From contig NZ_SJPI01000003.1 in assembly GCF_007859865.1 (NCBI RefSeq), forward strand, positions 868,001-932,000: a stretch of 64,000 nt of DNA, read 5' to 3'. This stretch comes from Rubripirellula amarantea (GTDB taxonomy: Bacteria; Planctomycetota; Planctomycetia; Pirellulales; Pirellulaceae). Shown here piece by piece: positions 2,692 to 17,913 of the stretch (position 1 is the stretch's first letter; the number at the start of each line of letters is the position of its first letter). The notes under the pieces are model-generated. The model worked only from the letters and a program-made list of their open reading frames with translations, did not search any database and was not told the origin of the DNA. Both the position numbers and the translations under genes were made by a program.

Positions 2692-3600
2692 ATGACTCAG
2701 CGTAAAGGGTCCGACTACGCCGGATTATCCGTCGCCATTATCACGCCGTTCGCCGACGGTGAAGTCGATTATTCCCGTCTTCGGGAACAACTCGAGTTCC
2801 AGATCGAAGCGGGTACCAAATGCATCGTTCCTGTGGGCACTACCGGCGAATCGCCAACCCTGTCGCACGATGAACATGAGCGCGTGATATCGGAAGTCAT
2901 CCAATGCGTCGCTGGCCGAGCCAAGGTGATGGCGGGAACCGGCAGCAACAGCACTGCGGAAGCATTGCGATTGACTCAGCGGGCTGCCAAAGAAGGCGCC
3001 GACGCTACGCTGCAAGTGGCTCCGTACTACAACAAGCCCACTCAGGAAGGCTTTTACCAGCACTTCAAAGCGATTGCCGAAGACGTCGACATTCCAGTTT
3101 GCGTCTACAACATTCCTGGACGTTCAGCCAAAGAAATTGATGTGGAAACGATCCAACGCTTGTCGGATCTTGCTGGCATTACGATGGTCAAGGAAGCGAC
3201 CGGCAAGCTTGACCAGTGCTCCGCTATCCTAAGCACAACGAACCTGACGGTCCTTAGCGGAGACGACTCGTTGACTTTGCCCATGATGAGCGTGGGAGCC
3301 GAAGGCGTGATTTCGGTGGTCGGTAACGTTGCTCCCAAGCCAATGATCGAACTGGTCAATGCGGCCACCCAAGGCGATTTCGAAACCGCGCGTAACATCC
3401 ACCACCGCATGTACAAGCTATGCAGCAACATGCTAGGTATTGCGACCAACCCGATCCCGATCAAAGCAGCAATGCAAATGGTCGGACGCGACACCGGTGA
3501 ATTGCGTTTACCGATGACACCATTGGACGAAAATCAAATGGAATTTCTGCGTGAAACTCTGTTTGCATTTGGTCTAGAAGAAGCTGTGGCAACGACCTAG
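2692..3600 (+). CDS. dapA: 4-hydroxy-tetrahydrodipicolinate synthase
   Basis: Condenses pyruvate with aspartate semialdehyde in the lysine/diaminopimelate pathway. The 302-residue product is full length for the family. Visible motifs are GTTGESPTL (substrate loop), the YYNKPTQEG segment, VYNIPGRS with the catalytic Tyr, and TMVKEATG with the Schiff-base Lys, followed by [20 protein letters not shown]. It starts at ATG 2692 and is divergent from the permease gene. Its presence suggests a DAP supply in an organism group where the peptidoglycan question was long debated. No other lysine gene is in the window. Assignment among DapA, NanA and KDG-aldolase relatives favours DapA because of GTTGES and the overall similarity. 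Confidence 0.95.
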
Positions 3601-3860
3601 TTTCGAGCGACTCCGAATGGTTTTGATCGAGTCTCTTTTTGCCCGGTAATTTGCCCACCCTGCAGATTTCGGATCGGTTGGCTGCTGTCCGACCGGTTAC
3701 TTTTGCGCAGTTTGCGTTATTCCCGGACGACTGACGACTCGATCGGATCGATTCCTGCGGATCGCCGTTGAGCCTACACACTTTACTCAAGCCGCAAGGT
3801 TTACCTAGCCGATAAAGAGGGAGTACGGAAACTCCTTTCAGCCAGGGTCACCAGAAGCTC

Positions 3861-9772: not shown

Positions 9773-11296
9773 CTAAGCGATGTGCTCAACAATCTTGTAG
9801 CCACTCTTGAAGTCATTGATCGCAGCTTCGATCTTCTCTACGACTTCGTCAGTCAGGTCCATCTTATCGTCGATGAGACTGACCGTAGCGGAATGCTTAT
9901 CGTGAACGAACTGCAAGAAGTCTTTTTCCCACTGAGGAACGGACTTCACTGGCACGTCGTCAAGGAAACCTCGTGTACCGGCATAAAGGCTTAGGACTTG
10001 GTCGGTCACACTCATCGGTTGATACTGAGGCTGCTTCAACAGCTCAACCATGCGATATCCACGATCGAGTTGCTGCTGGGTAGCATCGTCGAGATCAGTA
10101 CCCAATTGAGCAAAAGCTTCCAAAGCACGGAAAGCTGCGAGGTCAAGACGCAAGCCGCCCGACACCTTTTTCATCGCTTTCACTTGAGCAGCACCACCCA
10201 CGCGGGACACCGAGATACCGGCGTTCATAGCGGGACGAATCCCTGCGAAGAACAAGTCGGGTTGCAGGTAGATTTGACCATCAGTGATCGAAATCACGTT
10301 GGTGGGGATATAAGCGGAAACTTCGCCTTCAAGCGTCTCGATGATTGGCAAGCTCGTGATCGAACCGCCACCGAGTGCATCCGATAGCTTCGCGGAACGT
10401 TCCAACAAACGGCTGTGACAATAGAACACGTCACCAGGGTAAGCTTCACGACCTGGTGGGCGACGCATCAACAAGCTCATCTGACGATAAGCGGTAGCTT
10501 GCTTCGACAAATCGTCGTAGACCACCAACGCATGTCCGCCATTGAACATGAAGTGTTCGGCCATCGCGGTACCGGCGTATGGAGCAACATATTGCAATGG
10601 AGCAGGGGACGAAGCGCCGGCGACGACGACGGTTGTGTATTCCATCGCACCATTCTTCTCGAGCACGTCTACGATCGAAGCAACCGCAGAGTCCTTTTGA
10701 CCGATCGCGACATAGAAGCACTTAACGCCCTTGCCCTTCTGGTTCAAAATCGCGTCAATCGCGATCGCAGTCTTACCAGTCTTGCGGTCACCAATGATCA
10801 ATTCACGTTGGCCGCGTCCGATCGGTGTCATGGCATCAATCGCCTTGACGCCGGTTTGCATCGGCTCGGTAACGGGTTGACGCTCGGCCACGCCCGTCGC
10901 GATGACTTCGACCGGACGAGTTAAGTCCGTCTGAACAGGCCCCTTGCCATCGAGAGGGTTGCCAAGTGGGTCGAGAACTCGTCCCATCACGGCATCGCCG
11001 CATGGTACTGCGAGAAGAGTCCCGAGAGCCTTGACTTCTTCGCCTTCTTTAATGGTGAGGTAGTTACCAAGAATGATAACCCCGACGGAGTTTTCTTCGA
11101 GGTTGAACGCCAGCCCGATCGCTCCGTTCTGGAACTCTACCATCTCACCAGCCATAACGCCGGAGAGACCGTAAACGCGTGCGATACCGTCACCGACTTC
11201 GAGGACGGTGCCGACTTCACGAACGTCGATCTTGCTGTCGAATTGTTCGATCTCTTGTTGCAAGACCGATGCGATTTCGTCGCTGCTAAATTTCAT
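9773..11296 (-). CDS. atpA: ATP synthase alpha subunit
   Basis: Non-catalytic nucleotide-binding subunit of F1. The 507-residue product has the P-loop [11 protein letters not shown] (usually GDRQTGKT), the GMVMGRV-like segment replaced by [18 protein letters not shown], and the arginine-finger region [17 protein letters not shown]. The N-terminal sequence [39 protein letters not shown] is typical. It lies 24 bases after atpH. Confidence 0.97.
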
Positions 11297-11320
11297 GACT
11301 GTGTCTGATGCAAAACGATT

Positions 11321-11950
11321 TTATTGGGATGTGAACTGCTCAAATCGCTCAAGCAACTTGCTGGAGAAACCCGCTCGTGCTCGATGAGCCATTGCGTCAA
11401 GTCGGTTGGCGACGCTGCTGTCGAAAACCTTATCTCCAACGCGAATGACCATTCCACCGATCAATGCTGGATCGACGGATTCAATCAAACGCACTTGGCG
11501 ATTCATGGTAAAAGAAAGACGATCAACAATCTGGGCACGCAGGTTGTCGTCCAATGGCACCGCGGTGCGAACCGAGGCGACCATTCGCCCCATCATATCG
11601 TCAAGAATTGAGTCCGCAGCGGTGCGTACCGCAGCGATGAACCCAAGGCGATCGCGAGTAGCCATCACCTTTAAGAACTTGATCAACAACGGATGGAATT
11701 CGCCGCCAAGTAATCGATCAATCACGCGAACCTTTTCGTTCTCGGATACGCGAGGTGATCGCAGGGCGGCGGCCAACTTGGGATTGCCGGCGATGTACTC
11801 ATCGACCAAGCGGCCAAGTTGTTCGACCACGGTGTCGGCAACACCATGGCCTTCATTCTGAGCCGCACCGATCAGAGCCCGTGCATAGGTCTTCCCAAGC
11901 TGTTCGGCTCCGGTGTCTAGCACGGTGTCGTGTTTGATAGGTTCAGTCAT
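11321..11950 (-). CDS. atpH: ATP synthase delta subunit
   Basis: Connects the peripheral stalk to the top of F1. Starting at ATG 11950 the product is 209 residues (MTEPIKHDTVLDTGAEQLGKTYARAL), with the family features YARALIGAA near the start, LRSPRVSENEKVRVIDRL in the middle and the C-terminal IGGMVIRVGDKVFDSSVANRLDAM motif. The frame extends to 12040, but that N-terminus (a TTG or GTG start in the spacer) lacks family similarity, so 11950 is preferred. Confidence 0.93.
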   Translation of the reverse strand: MTEPIKHDTVLDTGAEQLGKTYARALIGAAQNEGHGVADTVVEQLGRLVDEYIAGNPKLAAALRSPRVSENEKVRVIDRLLGGEFHPLLIKFLKVMATRDRLGFIAAVRTAADSILDDMMGRMVASVRTAVPLDDNLRAQIVDRLSFTMNRQVRLIESVDPALIGGMVIRVGDKVFDSSVANRLDAMAHRARAGFSSKLLERFEQFTSQ

Positions 11951-12060
11951 CAGTGATGATGGCGATGAGGAGGAAATATATAAGAACGTTACAAATCGAA
12001 GTGACAGGCAATCGCCCGCCACACATGACCGAGTCCACAAGAGAACTCGGTCGACTAGAC

Positions 12061-12813
12061 CTAGTTGTTGCTAGGCATTCGCTCGATGGAACTGCGAATC
12101 AATTCCGAGTGATCTTCGGGGCGGAGTTCACGACCGACAACTTGACCAGCAATGGCCATGGCCATGTCCGAGGTTGAACCGGCCAACTCAGACAACGCAA
12201 CCTTCTTAGCGGTTTCGATATCAGACAAGGCACGCTGACGCTGAGCGTCGGCTTCGGCCTTTGCTTCTTCGACAATCCGCTTGCCGCTTGCCTCGGCGTC
12301 AATTCGTGCACCCGCGAGCATTGTTTGCACTTGGCCGGATGCCTCGTCCAACTTGACTTGGTATTCAGCCAGCAAAGCCCGCGCTTCAGCGTTTGCTTTT
12401 TCAGCTGCAATCAAGTCACCGTGAATCTTCTGCTCGCGAGCCTTCAATCCATCGAGAATCACTGGCCAGACAAACTTAGCAAGAATCGCGAACACACCCA
12501 GGAAAATTGCCAGGTTGCAAAGCGCCGAACCGAAGTCAAATTGCAAAAGCGGCGGAACGCCTTCCTCGCCATCGTGTCCGGAACCGTGTTCTGCATCGCC
12601 ATGGGCATCGCCGTCATGACCGGCCGCAAGGCCTGTCAACGAATCAGCGTGATCATGATCTGCATCAGCATGGTCGTCTGCGTGAGCAGCATCGACCACT
12701 GCGGCCTCATCAGCCGTCACGACAACATGGGTGCCAGCAACGAAACCCATCATCGCGAGCAAAGCCACGAGATGACGCAATCGGTTCATAGCGGACGAAT
12801 CAACGAAACTCAT
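12061..12813 (-). CDS. atpF: ATP synthase b subunit with His/Asp-rich N-terminal extension
   Basis: Peripheral-stalk subunit of Fo. The C-terminal 150 residues are ordinary: one membrane helix (about 98-118, SALCNLAIFLGVFAILAKFVW), then a long polar helix (LKAREQKIHGDLIAAEKANAEARALLAEYQ). Ahead of these sits a second hydrophobic stretch (about 14-33) that looks like a signal peptide. After it comes a low-complexity segment (about 43-85) rich in Asp, Ala and Gly with eight His (44, 48, 53, 55, 66, 71, 76, 80). The usual b subunit is about 160 residues; this one is 250. M9 (12789) is an alternative start that keeps the signal-like segment. The extension should face the periplasm. Confidence 0.92.
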   Translation of the reverse strand: MSFVDSSAMNRLRHLVALLAMMGFVAGTHVVVTADEAAVVDAAHADDHADADHDHADSLTGLAAGHDGDAHGDAEHGSGHDGEEGVPPLLQFDFGSALCNLAIFLGVFAILAKFVWPVILDGLKAREQKIHGDLIAAEKANAEARALLAEYQVKLDEASGQVQTMLAGARIDAEASGKRIVEEAKAEADAQRQRALSDIETAKKVALSELAGSTSDMAMAIAGQVVGRELRPEDHSELIRSSIERMPSNN

Positions 12814-12885
12814 CGGAATTCCTTTTAGGACCGAGACGACAAACAGACCGAAATCATGCCGAGCCGCAACGGTTGGCCTGCGGAT

Positions 12886-13137
<252 letters not shown>

Positions 13138-13285
13138 TCATCTACTCCTGAGAATTCTTCTCGGTGGTCCCATCCAAGTGCGGATGAGTTAAGGGTCTAA
13201 GGGAAATAGGGGAACAGTAAACTCTTGAACTTCTATCGTTGCCAAGGACGCTTTGATCCCAGGCAACATGTTTTATCGAAAAACA

Positions 13286-14302
13286 CTAGCTGGCGGGGTC
13301 AGCCATCGGTGTTATCCGCTCAGGCGAAATCAATTTGTCGAGGTCCATCTGACCTTCGTCGCTGAACGGATCTTCTTCTTCGTGATGCTCGTGGTCATGG
13401 TGACTGGCCACCAACGAGATGAACAACACGGTCAAAAATGTAAATATGAACGCTTGCAGGAAGCAGATAAACAGCTCCAGCAACGTTAACACGATGCCGC
13501 CACCAATGACCGAAAGCTGCACACCGTAAGCTAGCCCATTGGAAACTTCACGGGCCATGTATATCAGCCCGATGAACGCGGCGATGACCAAGTGACCTGC
13601 CATCATGGTTCCAAAAAGCCGCATCGCAAGCACGACGCACTTGATACCCAAACCCAACCATTCCAAGAAGTAGAGCAGGATACCGATTGGAAGCATGGCA
13701 GGATTATCCCAGCCAATCGGATTGAAGTGCGAGAAGAACGCCTTGGCACCCGTTTCGCGAATGCCGATGAACACGATGGCGATAAAGCTGCCCATCGCCA
13801 ACACAAGGTTCAACGACAAGTTGCCTGTCGCGGTTCCACCAAGGTGCGTGTGATGCGGGTTCCCGGTGATCATGTAGATGATCGAACCAAAAGGAATTAG
13901 CCCGAGCACATTGGCGAACAGGACAAAGAAAAAGATCGTCCAAATGTAATAGATGTACTTGTCGGTCAGCCCGTGCAAGTTTGGCCGTGCCACTTCGTCC
14001 CGAATGAATGAACACATCGTTTCGAACAACTGGGAAAAACGACCACGCGTCTGATAGGACGAAAGATCATCGCCCTTGACGCGAACTCGCCGCGAAACGA
14101 ACCAGAAAACCAAAATCACGGCGATCGCGGAGACCAGCGACATGATCAGGTGATTGGTGACAAAGAAACGATAAACACCGTCATAGATGTTCAGCGCAGG
14201 AATATCACCGCCCCCGGTATTTACCGAAAAGACTTCGTCGCCGATCCGATGCGGGACCGCGTGAGTGACCGGGTTTCCGGCCGAGGCGATTATCGAAAGC
14301 AT
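13286..14302 (-). CDS. atpB: ATP synthase a subunit
   Basis: Stator channel subunit of Fo. About five to six membrane helices are visible. The essential Arg is in VVLAMRLFGTMMAGH, preceded by EWLGLGIKC, and LELFICFLQAFIFTFLT closes the last helix. From the ATG at 14302 the length is 338 residues; a TTG at 14311 would add three residues. It is longer than E. coli AtpB (271) because of a 50-residue N-terminal part and a charged C-terminal tail with HHDHEHHEEED followed by about 30 residues. The tail should lie on the cytoplasmic side if topology is as in E. coli. Confidence 0.95.
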   Translation of the reverse strand: MLSIIASAGNPVTHAVPHRIGDEVFSVNTGGGDIPALNIYDGVYRFFVTNHLIMSLVSAIAVILVFWFVSRRVRVKGDDLSSYQTRGRFSQLFETMCSFIRDEVARPNLHGLTDKYIYYIWTIFFFVLFANVLGLIPFGSIIYMITGNPHHTHLGGTATGNLSLNLVLAMGSFIAIVFIGIRETGAKAFFSHFNPIGWDNPAMLPIGILLYFLEWLGLGIKCVVLAMRLFGTMMAGHLVIAAFIGLIYMAREVSNGLAYGVQLSVIGGGIVLTLLELFICFLQAFIFTFLTVLFISLVASHHDHEHHEEEDPFSDEGQMDLDKLISPERITPMADPAS

Positions 14303-14312
14303 CCCAGACAAT

Positions 14313-15059
14313 TTATCTCAACCACTCTACGAAGAAATTTGACGGTGAGCTGACTCGGCTTGCGGGCCCAAAACAGCCTGTCGAAGTGACGGGCAAGTCC
14401 GTGTTGGCCAGTGTTCGGCGATCATGACTGTTCACCGCGAAGGTATCAAGCACAGCCGCACCGCGACTGAGGCTGACAACCTCGGTGACCGTCAAGAGCA
14501 CGTACCAACCAATCACCAGAAAAGCGACTTGATTCACGACTTCGGCAAATTGATAACGGCACACTGCAAACAGTGCAACGGTGCCTAGCGAACGAATTGC
14601 CATCGCGGCGGTCCCACCAACCATTGCGACTTGCGACAGCTTGCCCAATGCCTGACGCACATGCCCTACATATTTGGCTTTGGCGGCTTCGTCTTTTTCA
14701 TCTTTATCTTGGCTAAACGCTGCAGCCACCGAATCGGGAATCACGCGATTAGCAATCGAATTGGCGATCGAATATCCCGGAATCAACGCTGCGATGGATG
14801 TCGCGACGCTTAGCAGCGAAATAATCACTACGGCAAGCTGCGACAGTTGCCAATTCAGCAGCGGATACGTCGCCACCAACACCGCGAGCCCGACAGCCGA
14901 AACCATCACCACTCGCACTGCAGCTCGCCCGAACAAACGCATTGCCACTACTGGCAAGCGATCGACCGGCGGAAGTGGAGTGACGTTGGACATCAAGAAC
15001 AGTGACAAAAAGATCGAAGACAAAATTAAAAGCGGCGAACTCGCGGATGCCGTCAACAC
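14313..15059 (-). CDS. Unknown membrane protein in the AtpI position of the atp operon
   Basis: I do not recognise a family. The 248-residue product has about five hydrophobic segments (roughly 9-24, 48-66, 74-95, 143-168, 172-194) and a polar loop with a charged run (SQDKDEKDEAAKAKY, 116-130). It sits between the AtpZ-like gene (its GTG start at 15059 directly follows that gene's TGA) and atpB (10 bases to the ATG), so it is clearly part of the atp operon. In most bacteria AtpI, a four-helix protein of about 130 residues, is encoded here. This protein is nearly twice as long and shows no clear AtpI motif by eye. Inference: an assembly or ion-supply factor for Fo. ATG 14993 (MSNVTPLPPVDRL) is an alternative start. 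Confidence 0.8.
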   Translation of the reverse strand: MLTASASSPLLILSSIFLSLFLMSNVTPLPPVDRLPVVAMRLFGRAAVRVVMVSAVGLAVLVATYPLLNWQLSQLAVVIISLLSVATSIAALIPGYSIANSIANRVIPDSVAAAFSQDKDEKDEAAKAKYVGHVRQALGKLSQVAMVGGTAAMAIRSLGTVALFAVCRYQFAEVVNQVAFLVIGWYVLLTVTEVVSLSRGAAVLDTFAVNSHDRRTLANTDLPVTSTGCFGPASRVSSPSNFFVEWLR

Positions 15060-15290
15060 TCACAAGGCAGTTGCCTTTTGAATGAATCTGAACATCGCGA
15101 AGCTAAATCCTACCAGAGCCCCGAACGCAGATCCGTACAAGGTTTGAGCCTCGAGGTAATAGTCGACCAAATAACCAAGCCCTAAACAGGCGATGGTCAT
15201 TCCAGCTAACTCAACGCCCATCGCAGCGAACTGCATCCATCGCGACCGATCCTCTCTAGATTGGGGTGAATCAGGTTCTTGGTCGGACAT
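15060..15290 (-). CDS. AtpZ-like small membrane protein, first gene of atp operon
   Basis: A 76-residue protein from ATG 15290 (MSDQEPDSPQSREDRSRWMQF). Two membrane helices follow: FAAMGVELAGMTIACLGLGYLVDYYLE, with the GYLVD motif typical of AtpZ/AtpI-family proteins, and SAFGALVGFSFAMFRFI. Family knowledge: AtpZ and AtpI are Fo accessory proteins, implicated in c-ring assembly and in magnesium/calcium uptake. The frame extends upstream to 15398, but that part shows no similarity and lies in the upstream spacer. It is probably the first gene transcribed from a promoter in the repeat-rich region to the right. Confidence 0.82.
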   Translation of the reverse strand: MSDQEPDSPQSREDRSRWMQFAAMGVELAGMTIACLGLGYLVDYYLEAQTLYGSAFGALVGFSFAMFRFIQKATAL

Positions 15291-15494
15291 CTCAACTCGC
15301 TCTTCGGGAAGGGCAACGTCGAACTTGGACGGGCGTAGTTTGATCGGACGATTGCCAACCGCCAGAGGCAGCGACGGATAGCCGCACCTAAAAAGCAATC
15401 TTTTTGCCCAGCGATCTCCATTGCAACCGGTGCCGCTTCACCCTCGATGCGTGAATCACCAGTTTGATGACCGGATGCCCATCGACACAACATC

Positions 15495-16467: not shown

Positions 16468-16474
16468 GGGAGGT
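16468..16474 (+). promoter_or_regulatory. Ribosome binding site GGGAGGT fixing the DUF4912 start
   Basis: A near-consensus site eight bases before GTG 16483. It argues against the longer frame that begins at 16339. Confidence 0.8.
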
Positions 16475-16482
16475 GCCTGCAA

Positions 16483-17913
16483 GTGATTACTACTGCCGAT
16501 CTAAAAGCCCAAACTCGACGAGAATTAGCCGACTTGGCCAAAAACTACGGAGTTGTTGGCTGGCATGGACTCAAAAAGGATGAGCTAATCGACGAAATCA
16601 AAAAGGTTCAGCGAAAAGCGAGACGCAAGTCCAGCAGCACGACCAAAACCGCTGCATCCAAGACTTCGACGACCAGGGCTACGGCATCCAAAACCACTTC
16701 CAAGGCCGTATCTTCTAAATCGGTGACAACCAAAGCCGCGTCGTCACCGACCGCCAAATCGGCACCCTCAAAATCAAAGCAAGTCAAATCCGCTGAACTT
16801 CGACAGTCCAGCCGCAACGGGAGCTCCGCTTCCTCCGCCAAATCGACGGCGGCGGCAAGCTTGAAAGCCCGAACGTCGGATGACGACGACATCAAGCCAG
16901 CACGCAAGCCCATCAAAACGGCTGCTCAAAAGGCTGACCAAAAACGCCTGAACAAACCGATGCCAAAGCTGCCCGAGCCACGGATCGACCCCAAGACCGC
17001 TCGCATCCGAGCACAGATCCGTCGCCGCCGCGAAACCATGCAAAAGAACCGCGACCTTTCGACGGGAACTCTCGTCGCAGGCGCGGCTGTCGAAAATGGG
17101 GCCAATCGTGTCAAAGGCAACCAACCTCACCAAGATCGAATTGTGCTATTGGTTCGCGATGCGTTCTGGTTGCAAGCGACTTGGGAAATCACGCGTGCTT
17201 CGGTTCAACGAGCCCAGTCGTCGTTGGCCGAACGTTGGCACACTGCGATTCCCACACTGCGAGTCCTAAGTGTGGGCGAAGTAGACAGCAACGCGGCCGA
17301 AAGCATCGCCCGAGACATTCCCATTCATGGTGGCGTCAACAATTGGTACATCGACGTTGACGAGCCACCATCGCGTTTCCGCGTCCTGGTTGGATACGCT
17401 GTGCCAAACGGTGAGTTCTACACACTGTGCCGCAGCAACGTCGTTGAAACACCCCGACCAGGTGAATGCGAACGACTCGACGAACATTGGCATGACATCG
17501 CCGAAGATTACGAGCGTATCTACTCACTTAGTGGTGGTTACGACACGGACTGTGGCGATCTAAAGGAAGTATTCGAGGAACGACTTCGCCGAAGCATGCC
17601 ACTACGTGGCGAACAAGGCCAAACGGTCACCGAACCTTCACTGCTTCGTCAAGTTAGCCTGCCGTTCGAAGTTGACGCTGAACTCATCGTGTTCGGAAAA
17701 ACGGTTCCTTCGGCATCGGTGCAAATCGGCGGTAATCCCGTCAAACTTCAAGCCGATGGCTCATTCACCGTTCGTATGGAGTTGGCCGACAAACGGCAAG
17801 TACTTCCGGTTACGGCGGAAAGCCGTGATGGCCTGCGTCAACGCACCACCGTGATTGCCGTCGAGCGGAACACGAAGGTCATGGAAGCTGTTGAACTAGA
17901 AGACCGGCTCTAA
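16483..17913 (+). CDS. DUF4912 protein with SAP/Rho_N-like head and histone-H1-like linker
   Basis: The 476-residue product has four parts. Residues 5-42 (LKAQTRRELADLAKNYGVVGWHGLKKDELIDEI) resemble the Rho N-terminal/SAP helix-turn-helix family, which binds nucleic acid. Residues 43-155 are a linker made almost only of Ser, Thr, Ala and Lys, like eukaryotic H1 or bacterial H1-like tails. About residues 218-375 form the DUF4912 domain (DRIVLLVRDAFWLQATWEI, FYTLCRSN, YSLSGGYDTDCGD). Residues 392-470 form a beta-rich domain (ELIVFGKTVPSASVQIGGNPV). DUF4912 proteins have no established function. The head and basic linker suggest DNA or RNA binding; that is inference. It is convergent with the flippase gene, 10 bases away. 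Confidence 0.88.
   Translation: MITTADLKAQTRRELADLAKNYGVVGWHGLKKDELIDEIKKVQRKARRKSSSTTKTAASKTSTTRATASKTTSKAVSSKSVTTKAASSPTAKSAPSKSKQVKSAELRQSSRNGSSASSAKSTAAASLKARTSDDDDIKPARKPIKTAAQKADQKRLNKPMPKLPEPRIDPKTARIRAQIRRRRETMQKNRDLSTGTLVAGAAVENGANRVKGNQPHQDRIVLLVRDAFWLQATWEITRASVQRAQSSLAERWHTAIPTLRVLSVGEVDSNAAESIARDIPIHGGVNNWYIDVDEPPSRFRVLVGYAVPNGEFYTLCRSNVVETPRPGECERLDEHWHDIAEDYERIYSLSGGYDTDCGDLKEVFEERLRRSMPLRGEQGQTVTEPSLLRQVSLPFEVDAELIVFGKTVPSASVQIGGNPVKLQADGSFTVRMELADKRQVLPVTAESRDGLRQRTTVIAVERNTKVMEAVELEDRL

Follow-up and report, generated by a model that had tools for sequence, protein, structure and literature searches.

Modular architecture and class-wide conservation of a DUF4912 protein, a putative adaptor, in Planctomycetia

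The 64,000-nucleotide stretch of Rubripirellula amarantea DNA analysed here (the window) encodes a DUF4912 protein with a modular architecture that is conserved across the class Planctomycetia: a Rho_N head and a basic disordered linker are followed by the DUF4912 domain and a C-terminal beta domain. Judging from sequence and predicted structure, we tentatively favour, at somewhat below even likelihood, a cytoplasmic one-copy adaptor of Planctomycetia whose head would bind polyanions and whose beta-domain half would hold a partner, the binding at both ends being putative. It adds a variant to a domain family already known and is not of a new kind.

Domain architecture of the window protein

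The gene lies behind a Shine-Dalgarno-like box, GGGAGGTG, and the reading frame and the GTG start at 16483 given in the earlier note were confirmed (Table 1). The orthologues mostly share a start codon (GTG, TTG or ATG) and a purine-rich box upstream at the aligned position. A secreted protein was considered and rejected, since a Rho_N domain that begins at the start codon would leave no room for a signal peptide.

Table 1 Features of the gene, its product and its conserved neighbour in the window
Feature	Position	Strand	Basis
atp operon genes, divergent conserved neighbour	9773..15398	-	frame list, class regions
Shine-Dalgarno-like box ahead of GTG	16468..16475	+	direct sequence reading
Complete gene, 476 aa, GTG start, TAA stop	16483..17913	+	frame and translation
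Rho_N domain, residues 6-45	16498..16617	+	Pfam, AlphaFold2, profile matches to Rho chains
Disordered Ser/Thr/Ala/Lys/Arg linker, about residues 46-168	16618..16986	+	composition, AlphaFold2
Arg/Lys-rich helix, residues 170-190	16990..17052	+	AlphaFold2 secondary structure; block pLDDT 74-86
DUF4912, residues 217-334; predicted FN3/Ig-like sandwich with one inserted helix	17131..17484	+	Pfam, AlphaFold2, fold search
Conserved helical segment, residues 329-369	17467..17589	+	alignment, AlphaFold2
C-terminal Ig-like beta domain, residues 400-460, glucodextranase domain B-like	17680..17862	+	model and fold search

Both Pfam domains passed their cut-offs, Rho_N (PF07498) with 30.3 bits against 24.9 (E 4.2e-7, residues 6-45) and DUF4912 (PF16258) with 95.6 bits against 29.4 (E 3.2e-27, residues 217-334). 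AlphaFold2, run on an alignment of 43 sequences (A1), returned three confident parts, namely Rho_N (mean pLDDT 86-96 per 10-residue block), DUF4912 and the C-terminal beta domain at residues 400-460, and gave the linker a pLDDT below 50 for most of residues 59-137. A1 leaves out L015, L023, L053, L055 and L059, whose start or length was unclear, as well as near-duplicate loci and L076; two of its rows, L066 and L073, do not belong to the class. The earlier note had read from the sequence a Rho_N/SAP-like head, a linker of Ser, Thr, Ala and Lys, a DUF4912 domain and a beta domain; all four were recovered, the head as a real Rho_N domain and the linker as a disordered stretch.

In the fold search the DUF4912 model matched 6x38 best (Z 8.8, rmsd 2.9 over 87), an FN3/Ig-like likeness that concerns the fold of the model only; tryptophans 229, 234 and 288 of the domain were invariant in the alignment. 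The C-terminal domain, modelled alone, reached a pLDDT of 91, and its top fold match was residues 707-774 of glucodextranase 1ug9 (Z 7.3, rmsd 1.8 over 64, 23% identity), FN3/Ig folds being generic and a Z below 8 such as may reflect a common arrangement. The same stretch of 1ug9 ranked second in a sequence-profile search with the C-terminal domain (E 0.15). Pfam Glucodextran_B (PF09136) scored 14.5 bits in the window protein, under its cut-off of 27, which leaves a likeness of fold only; it was matched at E ≤ 0.01 in 12 of 43 A1 members and in 7 of 22 proteins of other class families. Three weak signals agree on a likeness to glucodextranase domain B, which the model weakly suggests with a Z in the range of common arrangements. 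Unlike glucodextranase, the window protein has no catalytic domain attached.

The A1 profile matched Rho best among PDB entries: 7oqh was hit with E 3.9e-6 over positions 6-96, a match that reaches into the linker and is low-complexity past residue 46, and further Rho chains followed (3l0o, E 1.4e-4; 8hsj, E 5e-4). The sequence relatedness to the N-terminal helical subdomain of Rho covers window residues 3-46; unlike in Rho, Pfam found no match to the ATPase or the RNA-binding OB domain in the window protein. Rho_N was found by Pfam in 43 of 43 A1 members, a figure biased upward because A1 was picked partly by the Rho_N pattern, and at E ≤ 0.01 it was also present in 13 of the 22 proteins examined from other families of the class. 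The domain is akin to the SAP/HeH group, and one orthologue additionally matches SAP (L118, E 1.2e-4); the literature searched contained nothing that ties Rho_N to the SAP domain, plastids and DNA binding. By eye, three proteins have lost Rho_N and kept the basic tail (L130, L135 and L138), and one DUF4912 protein has two tandem Rho_N-like segments (L134:8068-9438).

Residues 46-185 of the window protein hold 21 Lys, 15 Arg and 9 Asp plus Glu, and Ala, Ser and Thr make up 46%. Across the 43 A1 rows this region is 32-181 residues long (median 92) and net positive in 42, so that the linker proved present in the orthologues; its absence there was what the earlier note had named as refuting its reading. 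Its median identity to the window protein is 10%, as compared with 54% for DUF4912 and 53% for the C-terminal domain. The linker is kept as a property, in charge and composition, and not as a sequence, as expected for a disordered polycation. The architecture search that the note had proposed likewise found the modular plan, with its basic disordered linker, conserved across the class.

Stretches of 100 residues with such a composition are rare among neighbouring genes: among 798 open reading frames (150 aa or longer) drawn from 71 neighbourhood regions, 36 contain one, and 35 of these are DUF4912 genes. They occur at 35 of 64 DUF4912 positions, a lower bound because the DUF4912 frames of L082 and L112 were picked in the wrong frame; the frame set contains no chosen DUF4912 frame for L055, L061, L106, L109, L111, L114 and L115. 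The 36th frame precedes the DUF4912 frame of L059 (frames around 2699-3697), which would suit a broken gene or a frame error in the assembly.

The region ahead of DUF4912 carries a net positive charge in 36 of 37 class proteins versus 9 of 19 outside the class, with L133 omitted from the comparison. Outside the class it can be acidic, with a net charge of -6 to -9 in L062, L063, L065 and L068 and of -17 in a fusion protein described below, so a basic tail is not firmly tied to the glucan role. Viewed by eye, the proteins L062-L065 and L068 of family f62, a family that has GH57 next door, begin with a hydrophobic or amphipathic helical stretch in place of Rho_N, perhaps a membrane anchor. Three further DUF4912 proteins from outside the class (L074, L077 and L113) carry very long Lys/Ala/Pro-rich tails and, by eye, a Gly/Ser/Trp-rich C-terminus with repeated 'GAS' words; Pfam gave no Rho_N match in L077 or L113.

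Distribution and gene neighbourhood

DUF4912 was found in 55 of 60 relatives and in 170 of 198 genomes of the class Planctomycetia (at least 90% complete), mostly as one copy per genome; the 20 listed of the 28 class genomes without it all belong to family f21. Over the phylum, 49 of 149 sampled genomes matched. Among 14 named controls, Synechococcus elongatus and Thermotoga maritima matched both DUF4912 and BE_C, Bacillus subtilis DUF4912 alone and Thermus composti BE_C alone. A tree of the short DUF4912 domain, computed without L080 and L133, was poorly supported and placed the class member L136 outside the class clade. A tblastn search of plasmid records returned no DUF4912 relative of L101.

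Upstream, 61 of the 72 class regions carry an atp gene, which is divergent in every one of them; of the 11 regions without one, 3 have less than 1.5 kb of upstream sequence. These counts go by position, and the wrongly picked frames of L082 and L112 do not affect them. The atp genes of the window were named by reading their sequences. The other flank varies and includes ThuA-like, UVR-motif, NAD synthase-like and FAD synthetase genes, and none of the neighbours in the regions examined was a conserved RNA-related gene. A function in the atp system, proposed from synteny alone, was rejected because the gene is divergent and its neighbours on the other side are variable. By eye, the genes downstream in the window look exopolysaccharide-related.

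DUF4912 and branching enzymes

Outside the class, DUF4912 occurs together with the C-terminal domain of GH57 branching enzymes (BE_C). Among the 141 genomes of the phylum sample that lie outside the class, 41 held both, 2 DUF4912 only, 9 BE_C only and 89 neither (Fisher p 3e-24, a value that ignores the kinship of the genomes). BE_C lies 1.3-3.2 kb downstream on the same strand for 38 of 53 DUF4912 matches, in 34 genomes; L101 is an example in which a GH57 branching enzyme with BE_C comes right after DUF4912. One locus encodes DUF4912, GH57 and BE_C as a single protein (L108:9248-11614), whose N-terminal tail is acidic with a net charge of -17 (row L071). In G091, G117 and G153, the open-frame lengths for DUF4912 and BE_C are equal. 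The co-occurrence, the operon adjacency and the fusion, together with the predicted folds, show that the DUF4912 half is by descent a partner of the alpha-glucan branching enzyme, as operon neighbour or fused domain.

The head and tail of the window protein also occur beside these enzymes. In L066, a weak Rho_N match (E 0.002) is joined to DUF4912 and the C-terminal domain, and the gene lies upstream of a GH57 gene on the same contig; the three-part plan thus extends beyond the class. In L073 (larger region L110) and L078, Rho_N and a basic tail precede DUF4912 directly upstream of GH57. The window protein thus shares its domain with the GH57-operon proteins (PF16258 with PF03065/PF09210) and, with L066, the order Rho_N, DUF4912 and Ig-like domain; it differs from them in that its genome has no BE_C, its divergent neighbour is the atp operon and the basic linker is fixed in the class.

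Within the class, GH57 BE_C passed its cut-off in none of 60 relatives, had no match in the window's genome (G000) and was seen beside DUF4912 in none of 72 class regions. GH13 GlgB was over its cut-off in 57 of the 60 relatives and the GlgA family was likewise found in 57. DUF4912 does not track glycogen synthase or the glycogen genes in the class: of the 4 class genomes that lack a GlgA-family match, 3 keep it; among the relatives it is present in G023 (99% complete), where GlgA-family and GlgB matches are absent; and GlgA is retained by most of the f21 genomes that lack DUF4912. Both the missing GH57 enzyme and this independence speak against a glucan role in the class. Since GH57 is absent and DUF4912 does not follow the glycogen genes, the protein has been freed from the GH57 enzyme and a new partner is possible. 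The GlgA-family match of the window's genome (G000:C1:1337190-1338035) is split, its pieces lying about 108 bases apart within one 548-aa open frame, which suggests an in-frame insertion.

Possible functions and meaning

In the adaptor that we tentatively favour, Rho_N at the head, together with the disordered, polycationic linker, would bind nucleic acid or another polyanion, and the FN3-like DUF4912 and the glucodextranase-B-like domain would hold an alpha-glucan or a glucan enzyme. Such an adaptor would anchor a glucan-side partner on the nucleoid or on RNA, after the model of the AlgP/PhaF granule tethers. Because the GH57 enzyme is gone from the class, the partner would now be the GH13 GlgB system or would have changed altogether.

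The available part of PMC9239181 links DNA binding and granule spacing to the H1-like tails that AlgP and PhaF carry in Pseudomonas. The two proteins are regarded as tethers between DNA and the polyphosphate and PHA granules. They join a lysine-rich, disordered, H1-like stretch to a storage-granule domain, as that part of the source describes them, and the window protein has such a stretch. The tails of AlgP/PhaF are C-terminal KPAA repeats, whereas the window stretch is Ser/Thr/Ala-rich and lies between Rho_N and DUF4912, and the translation of the window protein contains no KPAA repeats. With other domains and no such repeats, the window protein falls outside the AlgP/PhaF family; the claim, of low to moderate strength and drawn by analogy, is that it may work alike. 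That the class carries a glycogen counterpart of PhaF/AlgP, with alpha-glucan or its enzymes tied to the nucleoid or RNA through a DUF4912 recruited onto a Rho_N and H1-like polycation head, seems to us quite unlikely as a complete statement.

The earlier note had proposed a chromatin-type factor. In such a protein, Rho_N and the H1-like linker would bind and bridge DNA, and the beta domains would serve for oligomerisation or to bring in partners. The architecture given in the note and the basic disordered linker, which is conserved, stood; nothing chromatin-specific was found. The one-copy conservation in 170 of 198 class genomes, a linker conserved in its basic, disordered character, the kinship of Rho_N with the SAP/HeH group, to which the SAP match of L118 belongs, and the decoupling of the gene from glycogen genes in the class are all consistent with a nucleoid-associated protein. 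However, DUF4912 is GH57-linked by origin, the same head and tail also adjoin GH57, and Pfam found no match at E ≤ 1 to the winged-helix globular domain of linker histones in the window protein, which resembles H1 in tail composition only. Part of family f21, in the same class, lacks DUF4912, and planctomycete nucleoids in general therefore do not depend on the protein. A condensed nucleoid has been described for Gemmata, with Pirellula staleyi and Blastopirellula also named, in the part of PMC3440768 that was available; this is a correlation across the group with no link to the window protein. The literature searched contained no lysine-rich, intrinsically disordered nucleoid-associated protein of planctomycetes. 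We consider a chromatin-type protein rather unlikely.

To judge by its composition, the linker could have RNA or a different polyanion as its ligand no less than DNA, and an RNA-binding protein that acts in transcription or translation through Rho_N and the basic stretch is, in our view, unlikely. Some Rho factors carry a basic insert and offer a model for it, and the best matches of the A1 profile are Rho chains; set against these, the Rho ATPase and OB domains are missing from the Pfam matches, the profile match beyond residue 46 is low-complexity and no RNA-related gene was seen as a conserved neighbour in the regions examined. Distinctly unlikely is a glucan-side scaffold or branching-enzyme accessory that does not bind nucleic acid, the linker serving as a flexible spacer or binding polyphosphate or membranes. 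The operon and fusion with the GH57 branching enzyme, the range of the tail from acidic to basic outside the class and the low sequence identity of the linker would fit such a protein, but a net positive charge in nearly all class proteins goes beyond a mere spacer's need, and the gene persists in G023 in the company of neither GlgA nor GlgB matches.

In the literature searched, no function was described for DUF4912, the term was met only in an expression table of a cotton transcriptome and PF16258 was not found; the accessible part of the review PMC11046441 does not mention 'DUF'. The link to GH57 through operon and fusion gives the DUF4912 family a testable role. If true, the adaptor of Planctomycetia would illustrate cleanly how a partner domain from metabolism can be put to new use in an adaptor that binds polyanions.
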